Of a stretch of DNA of 64,000 nucleotides, positions 36,579-47,679 are shown piece after piece. Every line of letters begins with the position of its first letter. The stretch's first letter is position 1. Made by a program: the position numbers and the translations under genes. The notes under the pieces are model-generated. The model was given only the letters and a program-made list of their open reading frames with translations, did no database searches and was not told where the DNA came from. Origin of the DNA: Pedinophyceae sp. YPF-701 (taxonomy: Eukaryota > Chlorophyta > Pedinophyceae); assembly GCA_916048055.1 (NCBI GenBank), contig CAJZHL010000019.1:682001-746000 (forward strand), written 5' to 3'.

Positions 36579-38585
36579 ATGTCCGTGGACGCACTATTGA
36601 TGAACACGCCGCTGATGATGGTGCGTCCGTTGCACTCCAGCCCGTCGCGGGCCCCGCAGCGCTGCGCTCGAGGGCACGCACCCTGGTGCTCACTGGCACG
36701 ACCCCTCACGTCCCGCGCAGAGCGTCATCATCTCGGTGCTGGTCGCGTCACTCCTCCTCCCTTCCATCCTCGCGACGTCGCGCCCCTGGGCCGAGCTATT
36801 CTCCACACAGGACGGCAATTGGTTCCTCTGGTCTGGTATCGCCACCATGGTCTCGGGAATCGCCTTCGCGGTCGGCTCCATCGCCCGCATGCATGTACGC
36901 TTCCCCGAGAACCCGCCACCTGCCCAACTCGACCTCGCGCCGCCCACATACCTCCCGCCGGGACTATCGCACCACTCCACCGCACGCACCCGTCCCCACC
37001 GTCACGCTCCTCACCCGGCGCCCAGATCTCTCCCGTCAATCACGAACGCACCCGCCCTGGCCGCTCCCGCCCTCTCATCCAACACCCCCCCCCCTGACGC
37101 TCCCCCCAGGACACAAAGCGCCCGCCGGGGCCCCGGCCGTGGCTCCGCAGCCTGTCCTCGAGAGCCGCCCTCGGCGCCCCCGGCGACCGCCTCGCCACCC
37201 TCGTCGGCTTCGTGCGCGCCTACGGCCACACCACGTCCCTCAAAGCCGGCGGGCACCCCTACACGATTGTCGCCGATCCCAAGGTCGCCTGCCAGCTCCT
37301 CCCGTACGGCACGCACGAGCTCGACCGCCCCCGGTGTCCCTTCCGCCACCTCGGCCCGCTCGGCGCCGCGCGCGACGACCCCATCGCCGCGCACACGCGC
37401 GCGGGCTTGTCGGCGGCAATGGAGCCCTCCGCGGTCGTTGCTGCCGCGCCCGCGGTCCTGGACTGCGTCCGCGACGCGGCCGAGCGGCTCGGCGCGCAGC
37501 ACGCGAGCGGGCGGGACGTCGACCTCGAGGATCACGTCCTGCGGCTCTCGTTCGACGCGATGTCGATTGCGTTGCTGGATCATGACTCGGGGGCGAGGAC
37601 GGCGCCGTCGGAGGACGTGCGGGCGCTGGACGTGGTGCTGCGTGCGGGGATGCACGCGGCGGCGCTGCCGCCGGGCGAGCGCGCGGCGGCGATGGCGGAG
37701 GCGGAGCGGGCGGAGGCGGATGTGTTTGCGCGGGCGGCGGCGGCGCGCAAGGGGCTGGCGGCGGCGGCGCTGGCGCCGCGGCAGGGCGGGACGAAGCATC
37801 CGTTCCGCGCGCAGCTCGCTGCGATGGTGCGCGGGCGCGACGGGTTCGATCCGGCGCTGTCGGAGGCGGACGCGGCGTTCGTGGTGGGCGCGCTGGTCAG
37901 CGTGGGGGCGCGGGCGTGCGCCCGGGCCAGCCTGGCGGCGCTGCGCGCGATCGTGCGGGACAAGAAGCTGCTGGAGCGCGTGAGCGCGGAGCTGGACGCC
38001 GCGGGCCGCGCGCGCGTGGTCGGCGGCGGATGGGAGGGCCTGCGGCAGCTCACGCTGCTGACGACAGTGATCGCGGAGGCCCTGCGCACGAGCCCGGTCT
38101 GGGACGAGCCGCTCGTGCGCGAGGTCGCCGGCAAGGGCGTCGAGGTCGGGCGCTGGTTCTTCCCGCAGCACTCCACGGTGTTGGTGCCCGCCGCGGCGAT
38201 CCACAACGACGGGTACTTCTGGGACGACGTGGGCGCGTTCGACCCGGCGCGGTGGGACGAGCCCGACGCGGCGCTCGTGAGGGACACTGCGCGCGCGGCG
38301 CGGCCGCTGAAGGAGGGCGCGTGGCGGACGTGGCAGGAGACGCCGGTCGACGAGCGGTCCGGCTTGAAGGTGCAGGGCACGACGCAGGAGATGCTGGCGC
38401 CCGGGCGGCCGCGGCGGTACATGCCGTACGGGCTGGGGCCGCGGCAGTGCCCCGCGGAGAACCTGGCGGTGGTGACGGTGACGGCGAGCGTCGCGGCGCT
38501 GCTGGTGGCGTGCGACTTCGCGTGGGAGCCCGAGCGGCTGGTCGTGGCGGGGCGGCGGTCGAGCCATGCGGGGAAGAAGATGTAG
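36579..38585 (+). CDS. Membrane-anchored cytochrome P450
   Basis: Exons 36579-36620, 36721-36894 and 37110-38585 join in frame (phases 0, 0) to 563 residues. Exons 1-2 encode an N-terminal anchor with hydrophobic runs (IISVLVASLLLPSILATS and GIATMVSGIAFAVGS). Exon 3 begins with a Pro-rich hinge (KRPPGPRPWLRS) typical of ER or plastid-envelope P450s. The K-helix ExxR is EALR at about residue 395. The haem-binding loop reads RYMPYGLGPRQCPAENLAV, with the axial Cys near residue 518. The usual F-x-x-G-x-R-x-C-x-G is thus YGLGPRQCPA: Phe is Tyr and the last Gly is Ala. The I-helix region is Ala-rich (AAFVVGALVSVGARACARAS) without a clear AGxDT motif, so oxygen activation may be unusual. Clan and substrate cannot be told from the sequence by eye. 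Confidence 0.88.
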
Positions 38586-38807
38586 GCGGGCGGCGGCGCG
38601 CCGTGGCGGTCGCTGTGCTGACACGGGGCATCCACCGAGGTGAGGATGCGCGGGGCGTTGTTCGGCGAGGCTGGCGGCGTGACGTAGTGCGGCGCGCTGC
38701 TGTGCGCGCACGGGCTGACTGGTCAGCCGCGGGTGAACGAGGAGACCGAGCGAGCATCTGTTCGTGACGTCACATATTGCGAAAAGTGAGATGTCAACAT
38801 CAATCAG

Positions 38808-41800
38808 TCACCTCACCGCGGTGGTGATGCGCTCTCTTATTTCTTGGCGACACTCGGGGCAGCGCGGCGCATTTGTGCTCGCGAAGAACTCCTCCGAGCA
38901 TCCTGTGCAGATGTGGTGCTGGCATGGCAGGAACATCACCCGCTCGTCCGGGCACTCCAAACAGATCGAGCATATCCTGACGCCGGAGCCCTCAGCCCGT
39001 GCCACGGAGTCGCGTAGAGGACGCTCTCCTGTCGTCCTCGCACCCGTTTCGCTCGCATTTTCACGTGGTGTCGTCCAATGCACACCGCTGAGGAGAATCT
39101 CGCTGCTCACCCTTGAAGGACTCGGCGGTGGAATGGGCGGGGCGGAGGGGAGCCAGTCTTGCTGCGATCGCTCAGACGGCGGAGCGGGTGGGGCGGAGGG
39201 AACCCACCCGTGCTGCGATCGCTCAGACGGTTCGGATGCGACATAGGCAGACACTCTGCCATTTGACGCCGTGCCAGACCCTCTCTTTTTGAGCATAATC
39301 GCCAAAACCACAGCAGCCACGCAACACACAATCCCTCCGAATGTTCCACCAACTGCCGCACCGATGTCGCCAGCAGGGGAATCGTCGTCATCATAATTTC
39401 CAGGACTCGTATAATAATACGAGTCCTCCGTCTGCGCCGGTGCGCGGTCCCCCGTCTGTGGAGACTGTGTAACCTCAGGCGCGGACACGACCGCGAGGAC
39501 GGGGATCGGCGAACTCGCTCGCAGTCTGGAGATCATCGTGCCATCGCGCACGGCACTCGCGAAGACCTGGGAGGCCGCGGCGACGAGAGCCTGGTCCTGG
39601 GACCGATGGACGACGGTCACGATGTACGTGGACCGTTGCAGGAGCTTCCTCATCGCACGAGTCGCTCTCAAAGAGAACACAATGTCGAGGTTCGGAGATG
39701 GCCACTGCAGCCCCATCATGTCCGCAATCTCGGCCTTGATGATGTCGAGATCCCTCGAGTCCACGGGCTCTTCGAACGAGATCTCGACCCGAGAAGTCGT
39801 GGAAAAAATCGTCGCGGCTCCTCCTTCCTCGCATGTCAAGATAAGATCCAGCCCAAGCAGCTCCCCCGAGTCTCCCTGCGCTTCATCCGCGATCACGACC
39901 TCCCACGTCCCCACCGCTGACGTCCCCTCGAACGCCGACAGCGACCCCGGGCTCGGCGCGAAGGGCCCCGTGTTGCTGTTGAGGTTCGACACCGACGTGG
40001 TTGCACTGTCCGTGAGCAGAATGTCGATGTTCGCGCCGGACCCGGACGGCGACACATTGCTCCCAGACACTCGATCCATCAGGAGCTGGGACGTCGACGC
40101 CCCCGGCGACCTCAACGAGATCTCCAGGTCGTTCAGGAACATATGTGTCAGCGCAAGCTGCACGCTCACGGATCGCACGGTGCAGGAGCCGCCGTAGCTC
40201 GACGGTAGCGTGCTGCGCGCCACGACGATACTGGGTACACGCACTGCGAGGGCAAGAAGCGTCGGGTGTGGCTGAGAGGGAAAATTAAATGACACTGCGA
40301 GAAACTGCAAGCGGTCGCGACGTGCGCGCGGATGCGACGGAGCCGAGGAGCGCGGAAAGTCACCGGCGGTTTGTCACCTGCTCTGTCTGGCAGCAACCGG
40401 GGAAGACCGCTCGCCGAATATGAAAGAGGCTGGTTTGTGCTCGAGCTCGGTGTCGTTACGGGCGGCGTGACGGCGAAGGTCGACCTGACCGGCTCGACCG
40501 ACGCTGCTGTCGCGGAAGACGTCGGCGCCGGCGGGGTCGTCGTGGACGCGCTCGTGGGCGTTGGCGAGGGGGTCGACGTTGCGGATAGCGTAGCAGGGGG
40601 GGCCGGCGTCTCTGTGGGCACCGAAGGCGTCGCAGTCGGCGCAACCGGCGTCGTTGCGGATGCCGCTCGCGTCATCTCAGCAGCCGTCGTTGCCGTGCTA
40701 GCTGCCCCGTGCTCCTGCAAGCACCAGCACACAAAGCGCCGCATGAGATGCGCCCAGCAAGCGATCGTGGTCTGCGCCAGCGCAAGACGCCTCTCGTGTG
40801 CGCAGCGACAGAGCACAACTGCCCATGCAAGCTGACCTACTGCAAGTAGAGCACCGCACTCCGCACTTGGACACGCGCACTCCTCCGTGTCACGGAGGAG
40901 AGTGCTTAGCACAATGTGCGCCCGCGGCAGGCCTGGCACGCGTGATTGGCACACCTTCAGTACTATGTACGCCTTCACCGTCCCGCTCGTACTCGTCCTG
41001 CCCTCGTATAGATCGTCCGCGCTGCTGTCGCCGTCGTTGAAATTACCAAAGCCGTAGCACCGGTTCGACGACGTGCAGAAGTCCGACACGCTCGTGTCGC
41101 CGTGCAGCAGCCCCGCCGCATCGCTCGCCATCCACGCCCCGTCGTCCCCCGACAGCGCCGCCGGACACCCCCCCGCGTACCCCATGTTGTCAGACAGCGA
41201 CATACGCCCCCCCGACCCTGACGTCACCACCGACCCCGCCGCGGCATCGTACACCCTGTACGAGTACGCGGCGCCCGTGCGGTACGCGCTGAAGAAGCTC
41301 GTCATGTTCCGGTGCCCGCTCAGCGTCCACTCCACCACGAACTGCAGCTGGTTGTTCAAAAAGAACACACCGTAGTACACCCCGCAGTGGTTGGCCGACA
41401 GCGCATCGCAGCTGTACTCGCCCTCGCCCACGCTCGACGCCGACGACGCCCGCGACAGCCCCTCCGCCACCGCGCCCGTCACCGGCACCGCCAGCACCGT
41501 CAGGCACGCGGAGCGGATGCGCGCGAGGTCGGTGCTGGTGGTGCCGGTCAAGCCGGAGAGGACGTCGAAGACGGCGGCGGAGTCGGCGGGGCTGGCGCAG
41601 GAGGCGGCGGCGCACGTCGACGGGGGCGTCGTCGCGGCGGGCGGCGTCGTCGTCGTCGGGGGCGCGCTTGTAAACACAGGGGGGAGTGTGGGCCTCTGCG
41701 TTGGCGGCACCGTGGGGGACGGCGTCGGCGTGGGGGGTGCCGTCGTGACCAGCGCCGTCGGTGTCGTCGCACGAGCCGATTGCGTCGTCTGAGCTGCGGC

Positions 41801-44800
41801 CGTCGTCGCCACGGTAGCCTCCCCGTGTTCCTGCAAGCAGCAGCGCACCACACGGCGATTCAGACGTTGGCCAGCACCGCGTCGCAGCGAGCTGCCCGTC
41901 CTATGTGCGCGCTGACGCGCACCTCATGCCCGCATCAGCCGGCCGGCCGCAAGCAGAGCATGCTCATACACATCACCCGGCGCTCGCGCACTCCTTCGTG
42001 TGCGCGCGCCGCGTGCCCGGCTCACCTTCAGCACTATGTACGCCTTCACCGTCCCGCTCGTACTCGTCCTGCCCTCGTACAGATCGTCCGCGCTGCTATC
42101 AAGGCTGTCGAAGTTGCCAAAGCCGTAGCACCGGTTCGACGACGTGCAGAAGTCCGACACGCTCGTGTCGCCGTGCAGCAGCCCCGCCGCATCGCTCGCC
42201 ATCCACGCCCCGTCGTCGCCCGACAGCGCCGCCGGACACCCCCCCGCGTACCCCATGTTGTCAGACAGCGACATACGCCCCCCCGACCCTGACGTCACCA
42301 CCGACCCCGCCGCGGGGTCGTACACCCGGTACGAGTACGCGGCGCCCGTGCGGTACGCGCTGAAGAAGCTCGTCATGTTCCGGTGCCCGCTCAGCGTCCA
42401 CTCCACCACGAACTGCAGCTGGTTGTTCAAAAAGAACACACCGTAGTACACCCCGCAGTGGTTGGCCGACAGCGCATCGCAGCTGTACTCGCCCTCGCCC
42501 ACGCTCGACGCCGACGACGCCCGCGACAGCCCCTCAGCCACCGCGCCCGTCACCGGCACCGCCAGCACCGTCAGGCACGCGGAGCGGATGCGCGCGAGGT
42601 CGGTGCTGGTGGTGCCGGTCAAGCCGGAGAGGACGTCGAAGACGGCGGCGGAGTCGGCGGGGCTGGTGCAGGAGGCGGCGGCGCACGTCGACGGGGGCGT
42701 CGTCGCGGCGGGCGGCGTCGTCGTCGTGGCAGATGCGTTCGTCAGCGCAGGAGTGGTAGTTTGCATCGGCAGCGTCGTGGGGGCCGGCGATGCCGTCGCG
42801 ATTGGTGCCGTCGTAGACCGTGCAGTCTGATTGAGTGATGAATTTGTTGCACTTGAGTTGGTACCCGACGGAGGCGCTGTCGCAAAGGTCGTTGTAGTTG
42901 TCGTGGGTGGCAGAACAGTCGTATTCGAGCCTGCCAGCCCAAGCGGCCTTGACGTGTGGTGTGGCGTTGAGGTGACTGGGAACGATGTCGCAGGTGCCGC
43001 TCGCGTCGTCTGGGCTGCAGCCGTCGTCGGCGCGCTATCAGCCAAGTGTTCCTGCAAGCACCGGCACATCAGATGCTGCTCGGAAGCGCTGAGCACCTCG
43101 TCGCTGCGAGATGCCTCCCAGGCGTCTCCGGTGCGCCGCACACGGTCTTTCGCCGGCCCGCCGAATGCAAGCAGAGCGTGCTCAAATTGAGCACGCGCCC
43201 TGAATCAGTCACCGTCCGCGCTGCCATGAGCGAAGCGTAGCGAAGCGGACGGTGACAGCGGGACGATTCTTGCACGCGCGTGGCGGAGGAGCCAGTCACT
43301 GCACCCAGCGCCCGCGCACTCCTCCGCCATGTGCGCCCGCGGCAGGCCTGGCACGCGTGCCCGACTCACCTTCAGCACTATGTACGCCTTCACCGTCCCG
43401 CTCGAGCTCGTCCTGCCCTCGTACAGATCGTCCGCGCTGCTATCAAGGCTGTCGAAGTTGCCAAAGCCGTAGCACCGATTTGACGACGTGCAGAAGTCCG
43501 ACACGCTCGTGTCGCCGTGCAGCAGCCCCGCCGCGTCGCTCGCCATCCACACCCCGTCGTCGCCCGACAGCGCCGCCGGACAGCCCCCCGTGTACCCCAT
43601 GTTGTCCGACAGCGACATACGCCCCCCCGACCCTGACGTCACCACCGACCCCGCCGCGGGGTCGTACACCCGGTACGAGTACGCGGCGCCCGTGCGGTAC
43701 GCGCTGAAGAAGCTCGTCATGTTCCGGTGCCCGCTCAGCGTCCACTCCACCACGAACTGCAGCTGGTTGTTCAAAAAGAACACACCGTAGTACACCCCGC
43801 AGTGGTTGGCCGACAGCGCATCGCAGCTGTACTCGCCCTCGCCCACGCTCGACGCCGACGACGCCCGCGACAGCCCCTCAGCCACCGCGCCCGTCACCGG
43901 CACCGCCAGCACCGTCAGGCACGCGGAGCGGATGCGGGCGAGGTCGGTGCTGGTGGTGCCGGTCAAGCCTGAGAGGACGTCGAAGACGGCGGCGGAGTCG
44001 GCGGGGCTGGCGCAGGAGGCGGCGGCGCACGTCGACGGGGGCGTCGTCGCAGCGGGCGTCCCGTCTTCCTCCTCGCATGTCAAGATCAGATCCAGCCCAA
44101 GCAGCTCCCCCGAGTCCCCCCCTAGCACATCTGAGATGACGACCTCCCACGTCCCCACCGCCGACACACCCGCAAACGCCGACAGCGACCCCGGGCTCGG
44201 CGCGAAGGACCCCGTGTTGCTGTTCAGGCTCGACACCGACGTGGTTGCGCTGTCCGTGAGCAGAATGTCGATGTTCGCGCCGGACCCGGACGGCGACACA
44301 GAGCTCCCAGACACTTGATCCATCAGGAGCTGGGACGTCGGACCCCCCGGCGACCTCAACGAGATCTCCAGGTCGGCCAAGTACGTGTGCGTCAGCGCAA
44401 GCTGCACGCCCACGGATCGCACGGTGCAGGAGCCGCCGTAGCGCGACGGGAGCGTGCTGCGCGCCACGTCGACGTCGACATCAAGCACTGCAGGGGGCAC
44501 GGAGCGGCGTCGGGTGTCGCTGAGCAGGAGGGGGCAATTCAGCGAGCGCGACGCGTGTGGGCGTGTTCGACGTGTTACGCCCGGATATACCATTGCTGCA
44601 GCCATGGGGAAGCGTGCGGTGCGACAGCGACTGGAGAACCTCTCCATCTTCCCACGACGGAGTCTCACCTATCCTGTCTGGGAGCGACCGAGGGAGACTG
44701 CTCGCCGAATACACCAGTTCTTGTCCTGAATCATGATCCCTCAAACGTCTCCCCAGACCCAAATCCTGAAGCGACTGGTTTGAATGTTCAGTGGCGCCCC

Positions 44801-45368
44801 TTCGCGAGGAGAGTGCTTGCTCGGGCAGCCCCGCCCTGCCAGGCTCGACGGCCGGCTCGGAGTCGATGCCTCGCTGGCGACAGTCCCAGCATAACTGCGT
44901 ACAGCACGTGCGAAATCGGAACGAGACACTGATCCGCTGATGGACGGCGCCGCGCGCGCAAACCTAGAGTGGCCAGCTCGCTCGCGACGCCAGCGGCGAC
45001 CGCACAAACCAGTCCGTTATCTCGCAGAATCGTGACCACTATATCAGCGGAACCAGCTCGGAGCGGCAAACTTCCGTGAATCGACCAAATCAACCTGGGC
45101 CGCGGCCCACAGAAGAAGAGCGGACAGGTGGGTCACGCACCTGGAAGCGACGCAGGACGCACAGCGCGAGAACTATCGCTGCGGCAGAGGCCCACAGAAC
45201 TGATCGTCCCGGGCGCGTGTTGCCTCTCTCAAGCCTCATCTGGCCTCCGCGCTCCCCATCAGTGTGGTAGACCCATCCGCCGGGCCTCACCCGGCTGCGG
45301 AGCAACCAATCGCGGGAAACTGTGCTCTCTGAGGTGCCAGCGATTTGTTTGTCACACGCAATGTCCAT
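38808..45368 (-). CDS. Giant modular membrane protein: two P/Homo-B domains, three repeat modules, TM helix, RING finger
   Basis: Seven exons (45368-45141, 44873-44669, 44487-43370, 43051-42026, 41830-40955, 40714-40378, 40243-38808) join in frame (phases 0, 1, 0, 0, 0, 1) to 1,741 residues. An N-terminal hydrophobic stretch (SVLWASAAAIVLALCVLRR) is a signal peptide or anchor. Residues from about 160 form a P/Homo-B domain as in proprotein convertases (LALTHTYLADLEISLRSPGG, AVGTWEVVISDVLGGDSGEL). Next are three near-identical unknown modules of about 225 residues with conserved Cys (CAAASC, NHCGVYYGVFFLNNQLQFVV, NRCYGFGNF). Each later module is preceded by a Thr/Pro-rich mucin-like linker. 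A second P domain (about residues 1280-1390) leads to an alpha/beta-like region, a TM helix (GGIVCCVAAVVLAIMLKK) and a C3HC4 RING (CSICLECPDERVMFLPCQHH, then CPEC). I infer a surface receptor with a cytosolic ubiquitin ligase. No subtilase domain is present. Confidence 0.72.
40955..41655 (-). repeat. Repeat module copy 3 of the giant RING gene
   Basis: Nearly identical at the nucleotide level to 42026-42727 and 43370-44055. It differs by scattered substitutions, for example YDAAAGS for YDPAAGS and NFNDGDSS for NFDSLDSS. It shares one exon with the Thr/Pro-rich linker before it. Confidence 0.88.
42026..42727 (-). repeat. Repeat module copy 2 of the giant RING gene
   Basis: Offset 1,071 bp from copy 3 and 1,344 bp from copy 1. 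Its exon begins with EHLADSAPTTAAAQTTRAAP, which resembles the starts of the copy-3 exon (EHGEATVATTAAAQTTQSAR) and of the following linker exon (EHGAASTATTAAEMTRAASA). The duplicated unit therefore included the intron and acceptor. Confidence 0.88.
43370..44055 (-). repeat. Repeat module copy 1 of the giant RING gene
   Basis: Fused in one exon to the first P/Homo-B domain without a long linker. It carries NMGYTGGCPAALSGDDGVW where the other copies have NMGYAGGCPAALSGDDGAW. Confidence 0.88.
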
Positions 45369-46315
45369 CGCGACCCCTCGTCTCCTCGGCGTTGTCCACA
45401 GGAGCCGCTCCGAGCGTGAGACTGAGCTGGGTGCGCCGGCACGTGCACAGTCCCCTCACCACCGTCGCGGGACGACCCCGCGCCACGAAACATCGCTCGA
45501 CGCGTCGCATCATACTCGAGATCGGCACAGTGCAAGAAGCGCGTGCCTCGCTGCGCGGAGGTCGCGACCTCCGCGAGATTCCAAGGGCCTGCTTTATCTA
45601 GGCGCCTCTGACGGCCACAGTGATAGCCGCGTGGCGGCTTCAGGCCCCGGTCGCGGCCACACCATGCGCACGCTGTGCAGTGCGATTCGTGTCCTCCGCC
45701 GCCCTCGCGCCGTCTCTGCCGCAAGAAACATAACGCAACGTTGCGTGCGCTCACCCGACTCCATACCCGCTACCCATGTAATTTGTGCCCCTGAACCACA
45801 CCTGGTTGAGTTTTCTCGCGACCTGCAGCCGCCATACCCCGTCTCTTCCCCGGAGGCCGGCCGCACGGGAGCGTGAAGCTGCTGACCGCGCCCGTCCCAG
45901 ACAGCCTGACTAGTTATCGTCCTGTCCCCAGGCGCCCAGCGCAGGAGATATTGTGAAGCGCGCTTCCCTTTACATGTCTGAACTGGGTCGTTCGAGGACA
46001 GCGTCACTCACCACGTATCACGCGACCTCGGCGAGATCCTCCTGAGGCTGCTTGTTGCAACTGTTGCCTCGGGCACTTGCAGGTACGTCTAGTCGCCACG
46101 CCTGCAAGACTCGCGCACTGACGTACCGCATGCCGGCCTCGTCGCGCTTGGTGGCCGTCGTGCGGTCGCGGAGAGCGACACCTTGACTCGCCGGCTCGAG
46201 ATGCCCCGGTCCTCGCGTTGCGAGGGATGCAGGCCTTACTTCGCGCGCCCACGCGATCTTCGCGGTGTTCCTGACGGAGACCTCAGCCAGGCGTACCGGA
46301 ACCTGTCAGTTCGAG
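45369..46315. other. Divergent region between the RING gene and the helical-bundle gene, with a 67-bp repeat
   Basis: It contains both upstream regions. At 45682-45748 lies one copy of a 67-bp repeat also found at 47909-47975. No other gene recognised. Confidence 0.45.
45682..45748 (+). repeat. 67-bp dispersed repeat, copy 1
   Basis: Matches 47909-47975 with four differences that I count. It contains ACGCAACGTTGCGT, a perfect 14-base palindrome. The two copies lie on the same strand and bracket the helical-bundle gene. Confidence 0.75.
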
Positions 46316-47679
46316 ATGGTTGACCCGTTTGGAGCAGTGGGTCTGGTCGTGGGGGTCGTCAGAGCCTGTGGTCTGATCGCGCGTCGCGTCAAAGAGTGCC
46401 GGGGGCTGGAGAAGGAGCTCGAGGAGGTCGCTGCTGATGTCAACTTGATCAAGGTGCGCGTACCCGGCCACGCTGTCATGAGATGGGTCAGCTGCTTTGA
46501 CTCCTGCGGCCCCGAGCGGAGTCGGCCTCGCCTGTCGCGGGGCTTCGCAAGGAAGCGCGTACGTGTATCAATCGTTGCAGACCTGCGGGGAGGAACTCAC
46601 GAGCGGCGTGAAAGACATGGCGAACCGACGTGCTGAAGCACTCCTCAAGAAGAACCAGCCGGTCCTCGAGGTGATGGAAAGAAACGTCCGCGAAATTTAC
46701 GACCAGCTGGAAGTCTGGCGGAAGAAGCCTCTCGGGGTGCGATGCTTGGGATCGATGCGCTCTGTTGACCGCGCACGTGTCCAGTGTGCAACATGCGTCG
46801 ACTGGATTACAGCCCGGAGACCGGGACGACCCTGCGTCACGGCCTCGCACACTCGACCAGGCACGATCAAGGCTCACGAAACCAGATGGTTCCCTTGAAC
46901 GCAGAAGCTGCGAATTCAGAAGAGAAAAAAGCGCTGCGACAAGATCAAGAAGTGGGACGAACGGCTGCGAGGGCACCTCAGCAGGCTCACCACGATTCAG
47001 GCCTCGGTGATCATGCAATCTCACGTTGAACAGCGCAGTCCGCGCACCCCCTCGCGCAGGAACGCCAGCGGTGCGCGAGGACAGCCGGGTGCTTCGCCGG
47101 GAATCAACACCCCGGAGCCCGCGCTGCCACGCGAGACAAGATCTCGGCGCTCGTCGCGGTCGACCCAGCGTTATGACGGGGCCTGCCTCGAGACCGGCAG
47201 GTCTTCTGGAGACGGAGAGCCTTCCACTGTGCGTTCGCGCAAGGCGCGAGCGTCAGATACCGCGCTGCAGGTTCGCGAAGGACATGACCGCGCGGTCCGG
47301 AGTCACCCAAGCACACCGCGCTACTCGCTACGATTCACGCGTCAGCCTCCGCGCGAACGCGAGGGCAGATCTCAGGTGATTGACTCTGTGCGGGCTGGTC
47401 GAGCCGGCGCATCCCTCCCTGTCTGAACTGCACGAGTCAAGGTATGCGTTGCCGTATACGTATGCCAACATGCGCAAAGCGACACCACGCCCGTGGGTGC
47501 ACTCGCAGGTGCCCCTGGCGAACCGTACGGATGCTTGGTCGGGTTCGACCGACAGGCTCGGCGAGAGCATGGCGATGTACATGTCCCCAAAGTTGCAGGA
47601 CCCACTGCTGGGAGAGGCATTCACCTTCTCGGACGCGGCTGATGCCATCATGAAGAAGAAGAAAGCGCGCCGGAACTGA
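46316..47679 (+). CDS. Helical-bundle protein resembling HeLo/RPW8-type N-domains, with a Ser/Arg-rich tail
   Basis: Exons 46316-46453, 46581-46736, 46905-47375 and 47509-47679 join in frame (all phase 0) to 311 residues. Residues 1-46 start MVDPFGAVGLVVGVVRACGL, a hydrophobic/amphipathic first helix. Three further helix-like segments follow: NRRAEALLKKNQPVLEVMER, VREIYDQLEVWRKK and KIKKWDERLRGHLSRLTTIQ. This layout (hydrophobic N-terminal helix, then long amphipathic helices within about 150 residues) recalls HeLo, RPW8 and MLKL four-helix domains that permeabilise membranes in cell-death pathways. The likeness is in pattern only; I see no sequence-level match. The tail is disordered and Arg/Ser-rich (RETRSRRSSRSTQR) and ends IMKKKKARRN. 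The last intron is chosen on phase alone. Function unknown. Confidence 0.6.

Follow-up and report, generated by a model that had tools for sequence, protein, structure and literature searches.

The minus-strand locus at 45368-38808 of a stretch of DNA from Pedinophyceae sp. YPF-701 raises the question of whether two P/Homo-B domains, three nearly identical modules, a transmembrane (TM) helix and a RING finger belong to one protein, and what such a protein would do. The stretch, called the window here, comprises 64,000 nucleotides (positions 682,001 to 746,000 of contig CAJZHL010000019.1) and is part of contig C19 in our searches, which covered the 27.9-Mb, 32-contig assembly of this alga, renamed Akinorimonas japonica (PMC12574857). 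The same paper mentions a draft genome of another pedinophyte, Oistococcus okinawensis. The original prediction, made from the letters alone, described seven phase-consistent exons and proposed a surface or endomembrane sensor coupled to ubiquitylation. Its observation was right, and its interpretation is plausible and better founded now: we assign a probability of roughly 0.6 to one gene for a receptor-like transmembrane E3 ubiquitin ligase of a new build.

All seven exons have GT-AG ends and agreeing start phases (0, 0, 1, 0, 0, 0, 1), and together they would encode 1,748 residues and a stop, in place of the 1,741 residues first predicted. Read along the minus strand, the features are as follows.
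45141..45368, minus strand: exon 1 (tentative), N-terminus with hydrophobic residues 54-72, a signal peptide or signal anchor (open reading frame, GT donor, phase)
44669..44894, minus strand: exon 2 (tentative), whose final stretch is homologous to the end of exon 6 (phase-consistent splice sites; repeat 44674-44711 versus 40383-40420)
43370..44487, minus strand: exon 3, P domain 1 (Pfam stretch about 44099-44419, genome place C19:726099-726419) and module 1 (43370-44029) (PF01483, codon use, donor)
42026..43051, minus strand: exon 4, Thr/Pro linker and module 2 (42026-42685) (splice sites, module identity, codon use)
40955..41830, minus strand: exon 5, Thr/Pro linker and module 3 (40955-41614) (splice sites, module identity, codon use, acceptor)
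40378..40714, minus strand: exon 6, Thr/Pro linker that ends in the same repeat as exon 2 (splice sites, repeat)
38808..40243, minus strand: exon 7, P domain 2, juxtamembrane (JM) domain, TM helix, cytosolic tail, RING and stop (Pfam, codon use, AlphaFold2)
39852..40175, minus strand: P/Homo-B domain 2 (PF01483, 33.8 bits in frame; genome place C19:721852-722175)
39471..39830, minus strand: predicted JM ferredoxin/SEA-like domain, residues 1409-1528 (120 residues) (AlphaFold2; kinship with the JM segments of kinase-U-box genes)
39639..39650, minus strand: RKLL motif in the loop between JM strands two and three (sequence and AlphaFold2 model)
39291..39347, minus strand: TM helix, residues 1570-1588, followed by KKR (top Kyte-Doolittle 19-mer, mean 2.45)
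39126..39227, minus strand: two tandem 17-residue repeats, each with PSAPP (51-nt direct repeat, 42/51 identical)
38832..38975, minus strand: C3HC4 RING near the C-terminus (zf-C3HC4_3; genome place C19:720832-720975)

When the entire predicted protein was compared with Pfam at E up to 1, P_proprotein matched in two stretches (63.3 bits in total, cut-off 21) and zf-C3HC4_3 reached 29.1 bits (cut-off 27); the PA, S8, SEA, kinase and U-box families gave no match. A frame-wise scan of the locus, with exon 2 outside the frames covered, gave 36.7 bits for the P domain in exon 3, 33.8 bits for that in exon 7 and 31.9 bits for the zf-C3HC4_3 RING. The highest Kyte-Doolittle 19-mer over the protein starts at residue 1570 and the second at residue 54, and nine of the ten N-x-S/T sequons precede the TM helix. 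The predicted order of a hydrophobic N-terminus, P domain, three modules, P domain, TM helix and C3HC4 RING is borne out by Pfam and hydropathy, with exons 1 and 2 kept tentative. The lack of a protease catalytic domain was likewise confirmed, since no S8 match lies in the predicted protein or, among the 15 Peptidase_S8 rows of the genome, on contig C19. A codon-use model derived from further long frames in the same genome (chosen by length and strand, uncurated) scored exons 3, 4, 5 and 7 as coding-like in the used frame and exon 6, a Thr/Pro linker, as neutral.

The RING core occupies residues 1695-1736, where the eight zinc ligands read C3HC4. The sequence has the Ile of C-x-I-C, the Pro of CPEC and an Arg following the last Cys, all positions with recognized roles in RING domains, and scores for the RING-H2 family (zf-RING_2) were 23.4 and 22 bits, below the cut-off of 27.3. 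Judged by profile and ligands, the domain is a predicted RING-type E3 domain. Between it and the membrane lie the PSAPP repeats; the binding partner of PSAP-type motifs is the UEV domain of ESCRT-I (endosomal sorting complex required for transport I), and the genome has a single such domain at C14:765425.

Between P domain 2 and the TM helix there is a further predicted domain, new here and missed by the original prediction. Modeled alone in AlphaFold2, this JM segment gave a predicted local distance difference test (pLDDT) score of 81.2 and a strand-helix-strand-strand-helix-helix-strand order, and it is predicted to fold as a ferredoxin/SEA-like domain, for which the mature ectodomain of IA-2 and the membrane-near part of PCDH15 are comparators as membrane-adjacent ferredoxin/SEA-like ectodomains. 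The Pfam SEA profile matched neither JM nor the rest of the protein at E up to 1. In SEA domains and in Notch, cleavage falls in the loop that corresponds to the one carrying RKLL. When ten of the 15 JM-TM places of the genome were aligned, the pattern R-x-[LIVM]-[LM] stood in the same or directly neighboring columns in nine of the ten segments, the window's included; it is absent from the C30 segment. This loose pattern occurs in 10-33% of shuffled single domains, so the aligned position counts more than the occurrence. According to PMC11494411, RRLL or RKLL lies at the putative cleavage region of processed pectin methylesterases (PMEs) in Nicotiana benthamiana and a dibasic motif is needed for PME cleavage, and PMC11494411 and PMC4008260 link plant PME processing at RRLL/RKLL to subtilases.

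The JM segment and the following TM helix recur in the genome, at 15 places including that in the window. Against a profile of five relatives the window JM scored 16.3 bits, which none of 10,000 shuffles reached (composition correction off). The frames of 12 of the 15 places were scanned with Pfam (C29 x2 and C28:1289664 left out); five held a kinase (C5, C12, C14 x2 and C30), one, the window's, held a RING and six held neither, with later exons outside the scope for these six. Within 4 kb downstream on the same strand, a U-box follows at five of the 15 places, the same five that have kinases, and a RING follows at the window alone, where the chance expectation per place is 0.0017 for a U-box and 0.0051 for a RING. 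The five places are C5:1043493+, C14:638376-, C14:651439-, C12:377562- and C30:109428-. From order, strand and spacing we infer that kinase and U-box form one protein at each of them; at C14b the last part of the kinase and the first part of the U-box, which is below the cut-off there, lie in one frame. The window gene appears to share with them a related JM domain, a TM helix and a downstream E3-type domain, although they carry a kinase and U-box where it carries a RING, and the C30 gene lacks the R-x-[LIVM]-[LM] motif seen in the window JM. The JM-TM segments are best read as parts of a family in which ectodomains are interchangeable and the outputs are of the E3 type.

The five genes look like receptor kinases to which a U-box is fused. 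Among them, upstream sequence was scanned at C5, C14a and, for part of the frame, C30: C5 and C14a have FG-GAP and TSP3 repeats there, and C30 has none in the part covered. At C6 such repeats lie within the frame itself.

Is the pairing of P domain and RING unusual in this genome? There are 54 places with a P domain (PF01483) and 71 with a RING, the latter merged by hand from 32 + 61 rows (22 shared) of two RING families. Among these, no other P and RING pair lies within 15 kb, and the next-nearest RING to a P domain is 18 kb away on the opposite strand. A protein search with exon 7 returned the locus itself only, among 7,995 best candidates. The pairing was originally called out as one without known parallel, and it does stand alone within this scope. 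Besides the locus, three protein searches gave just the P-domain proteins P0003 and P0004, the latter listed with an S8 domain; the searches rely on shared short words (5-residue for exon 7), similar length and best-candidate scoring, and distant P and RING proteins could escape them. For most of the pairings among P domain, RING, SEA and kinase-U-box, a literature search found no openly licensed paper.

A same-strand Peptidase_S8 lies within 5 kb of only four of the 54 P places, all at C2, and the window gene is not among them. P domains without a nearby S8 are the rule in this genome, so the missing protease does not make the window gene an exception here. The C2 subtilases share the P_proprotein domain with the window gene, whereas Peptidase_S8 is present in the C2 places and none is near the window gene. 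At C2:196001-212000, three tandem S8 subtilase places with P domains show the classical pairing, and in the one frame of this tandem that was scanned, an extensin-like stretch separates S8 from P. Giant frames that contain many P/Homo-B domains and lack an S8 within 5 kb occur at C31:151061-172968+, C13:590468-600885- and C13:610487-620824-, and further ones at C9:463489-470311- and C12:1137130-1143456+. Those on C13 and C31 resemble the window gene in having P domains followed by a same-strand JM-TM downstream, but differ from it in their many P repeats and in a short tail that has no RING or kinase in the scanned frame.

The three modules are 97-98% identical to one another as proteins and differ pairwise by 12, 27 and 17 nt per 660 nt, and the introns that follow the module exons have diverged despite the near-identical exons. 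Either gene conversion or repeated copying of exons would account for this combination; over the module exons (40955-44029), the pattern suggests gene conversion confined to the exons. Relatives of the module lie at five further places in the genome, one on C28 (62% identity) and four on C14 (52-54%), and of the C14 copies one is in an open frame of 5,420 residues and three are in frames of 285-292 residues. Read from the frames, those of the relatives continue AYIV-K-V, with a GTN codon after the module that fits a GT donor. All eight copies of the module have the four cysteines C69, C150, C180 and C186 without exception. The structure prediction of the module that the original prediction had suggested was run with AlphaFold2 on the three window modules; it yielded a pLDDT of 48 and no Foldseek match at E 0.001 or better, and a profile of the eight modules against PDB sequences gave nothing at E up to 10.

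Around the module relatives, C14:368001-388000 contains the four copies, one ending the very long frame, and a further long frame downstream with two TSP1 stretches. At C28:968-982 kb there are tandem near-identical P-domain units, one of which is followed by TSP1 domains and a hydrophobic helix, and this tandem lies about 9 kb from the single-module gene at C28:960182.

The nearest known architecture is that of the PA-TM-RING E3s (among them GRAIL/RNF128, RNF13 and RNF167), which like the window protein consist of an ectodomain, one TM helix and a RING, and whose ectodomain, as in the window protein, is named after proteases yet comes without a protease. PMC4021871 describes a PA domain and a RING-H2 in these proteins, whereas the window protein has P/Homo-B domains, cloned modules and a JM domain outside and a C3HC4 RING near the C-terminus. 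A TM helix between ectodomain and RING was found, and a PA domain and RING-H2 were not; by two of three defining features the predicted window protein is not a PA-TM-RING protein. To our knowledge, only a few transmembrane E3s have a real ectodomain, and most of these still lack a known ligand.

Several observations weigh against a single receptor-like ligase. The codon model scores exons 1 and 2 like introns, so that the signal sequence, and hence the topology, is unproven and the N-terminus is tentative; these two exons and the single transcript, which is predicted from sequence, are the main doubts. P domains 1 and 2, which are 84% identical, differ by 23 replacement and 13 silent codon differences, and with more replacement than silent changes the constraint on the P domains is not strong. 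With a ten-member JM profile and composition correction, one of 5,000 shuffles scored above the window JM, the same profile had no match in the window frames at default filters, and the identity of the window JM to the other JM segments is 14-24%. Shuffles of the tail contain P[ST]AP at least once in 4.3% of cases and PSAPP in 0.4%, the two PSAPP copies arise from one tandem duplication, and both PSAPP and RKLL are short motifs. Site-1 protease was considered as the enzyme that might cut the JM; its N-domain (PF23001) had no match anywhere in the genome, in a search that was uninformative, and in a long S8 frame at C17 Pfam shows Peptidase_S8 only. The remaining points concern the division of the locus.

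The original prediction had named separate transcripts, with one gene ending near 40.4 kb, as evidence that would speak against it, and split models do exist in the protein database. A search with the predicted first 524 residues found P0001, an unnamed protein product of 896 aa from Pedinophyceae sp. YPF-701, and this protein and P0002 (444 aa) divide the locus between them. Compared with the DNA by eye, P0001 starts with MERFSM inside intron 2, is without module 2, reads through introns 5 and 6 and, having entered a different frame, reaches its stop about 75 nt into exon 7, and P0002 runs from a methionine inside P domain 2 through the RING with no signal sequence. Furthermore, introns 2, 5 and 6 have no in-frame stop (introns 1, 3 and 4 do) and the length of intron 5 is divisible by three, so that retention is possible and the single-gene case rests on homology. 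Two adjacent genes, a P and module protein ending at about 40.2 kb and a separate shorter P-JM-TM-RING protein further down, would account for the database models, which split the locus exactly so. We nevertheless regard two genes as unlikely. P0001 requires part of exon 3 to be removed as a GC-AG intron, joins the end of exon 3 directly to exon 5 and so misses a module exon, and retains two introns; the exon 3 donor and exon 5 acceptor that it implies are those of the seven-exon model. P0002 begins within a P domain, whose frame has no Met upstream of mid-domain, and of the three ATG frames in 40244-41000 two are in the exon 6 frame, neither with a hydrophobic start, while the third (42 codons, 40826) has a hydrophobic stretch and counts in favor of a separate gene.

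The homology that speaks for one gene lies in the ends of exons 2 and 6. Exons 2 and 6 end in copies of one 38-nt block (two-copy pattern, 0 matches in 100 shuffles), and both copies enter a GTGA donor at the same phase-1 junction, followed by a diverged intron, a conserved acceptor and a P domain. As the end of exon 2, its intron and P domain 1 are repeated as the end of exon 6, its intron and P domain 2, intron 6 is probably spliced like intron 2, which would join the modules to P domain 2 and the RING. The start of exon 6 resembles the linkers of exons 4 and 5, and the distance from module 3 to exon 7 is just about 710 bp, nearly half of which is filled by exon 6. Based on these sequence comparisons, we consider a single gene quite probable. 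Intron 5 (40715-40954), kept in P0001, is 240 nt long and would add an 80-residue Cys-containing insertion.

If the protein is single, it may still act inside the cell as an endomembrane quality-control or trafficking E3, with P domains as luminal binding parts, and not as a surface receptor. P domains stabilize their neighbors in convertases, a role that would suit such a function. According to PMC4021871, the domains of PA-TM-RING proteins are extracellular or luminal and that of GRAIL binds substrates. The Thr/Pro linkers with N-x-S/T sequons would instead point to the surface, as would the JM-TM relatives that follow FG-GAP and TSP3 repeats, and we judge the endomembrane function to be less likely still than two genes. 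That the locus is decaying or mis-assembled, with exon shuffling driven by repeats and no functional full-length protein, is very improbable: module exons 96-98% identical in DNA between diverged introns and exons 1-2 that look non-coding would fit it, but the module, P, JM and RING frames are all open, the three module copies differ in their linkers and introns and so are not one collapsed repeat, and the changed module codons are mostly silent (8/12, 17/24 and 9/14).

For a receptor-like ligase encoded by one gene, the anatomy suggests how it might work, and the proposed sensor coupled to ubiquitylation fits this anatomy, and the kinase-U-box paralogs lend it support. What the sequence shows is the order of the domains, the predicted JM fold, the kinship of the JM-TM segment and where the motifs lie; the mechanism built on them is inferred. 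Outside the cell or in the lumen would stand a P domain, three Cys modules on Thr/Pro linkers, P domain 2 and the ferredoxin/SEA-like JM. A ligand or a neighboring glycoprotein would be bound by the ectodomain. The JM could be cut at RKLL by a subtilase during secretion and be held together until ligand or strain acts, and would pass its state through the single TM helix. The RING, clustered or released, might then ubiquitylate its own protein or a bound receptor, and PSAPP might hand the ubiquitylated product to ESCRT-I for vacuolar sorting. More tentatively, and doubtful as a whole, the family may be a modular receptor system in which a proteolytically primed SEA-like JM-TM core is combined with swappable ectodomains, made of P domains, FG-GAP/TSP3 or cloned modules, and with fused ubiquitin-ligase outputs, a kinase and U-box in five genes and a RING in the window gene, so that sensing and ubiquitylation reside in one protein. 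In land plants, receptor kinases act with separate U-box E3s, as in the pairs Pid2-OsPUB15 and LYK3-MtPUB1 (PMC8875423), whereas the algal sister genes appear to fuse receptor kinase and PUB-like ligase in one chain. If true, this would be a second way to build receptor-linked ubiquitylation in the green lineage, P domains would gain a role away from proteases, and it becomes testable whether the JM-TM core, which may signal to a kinase, can do the same with a RING.

In the surroundings of the gene, analyzed over 38000-47000, promoter and terminator patterns of the bacterial type did not exceed the level in shuffles, and RNA families gave no match at threshold. A divergent neighboring frame at about 46316-46898 on the plus strand starts MVDPFGAVGLVVGVV and had no Pfam match in two scanned frames. 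On the other side, the convergent neighbor at 37098-38582 is a cytochrome P450 gene.

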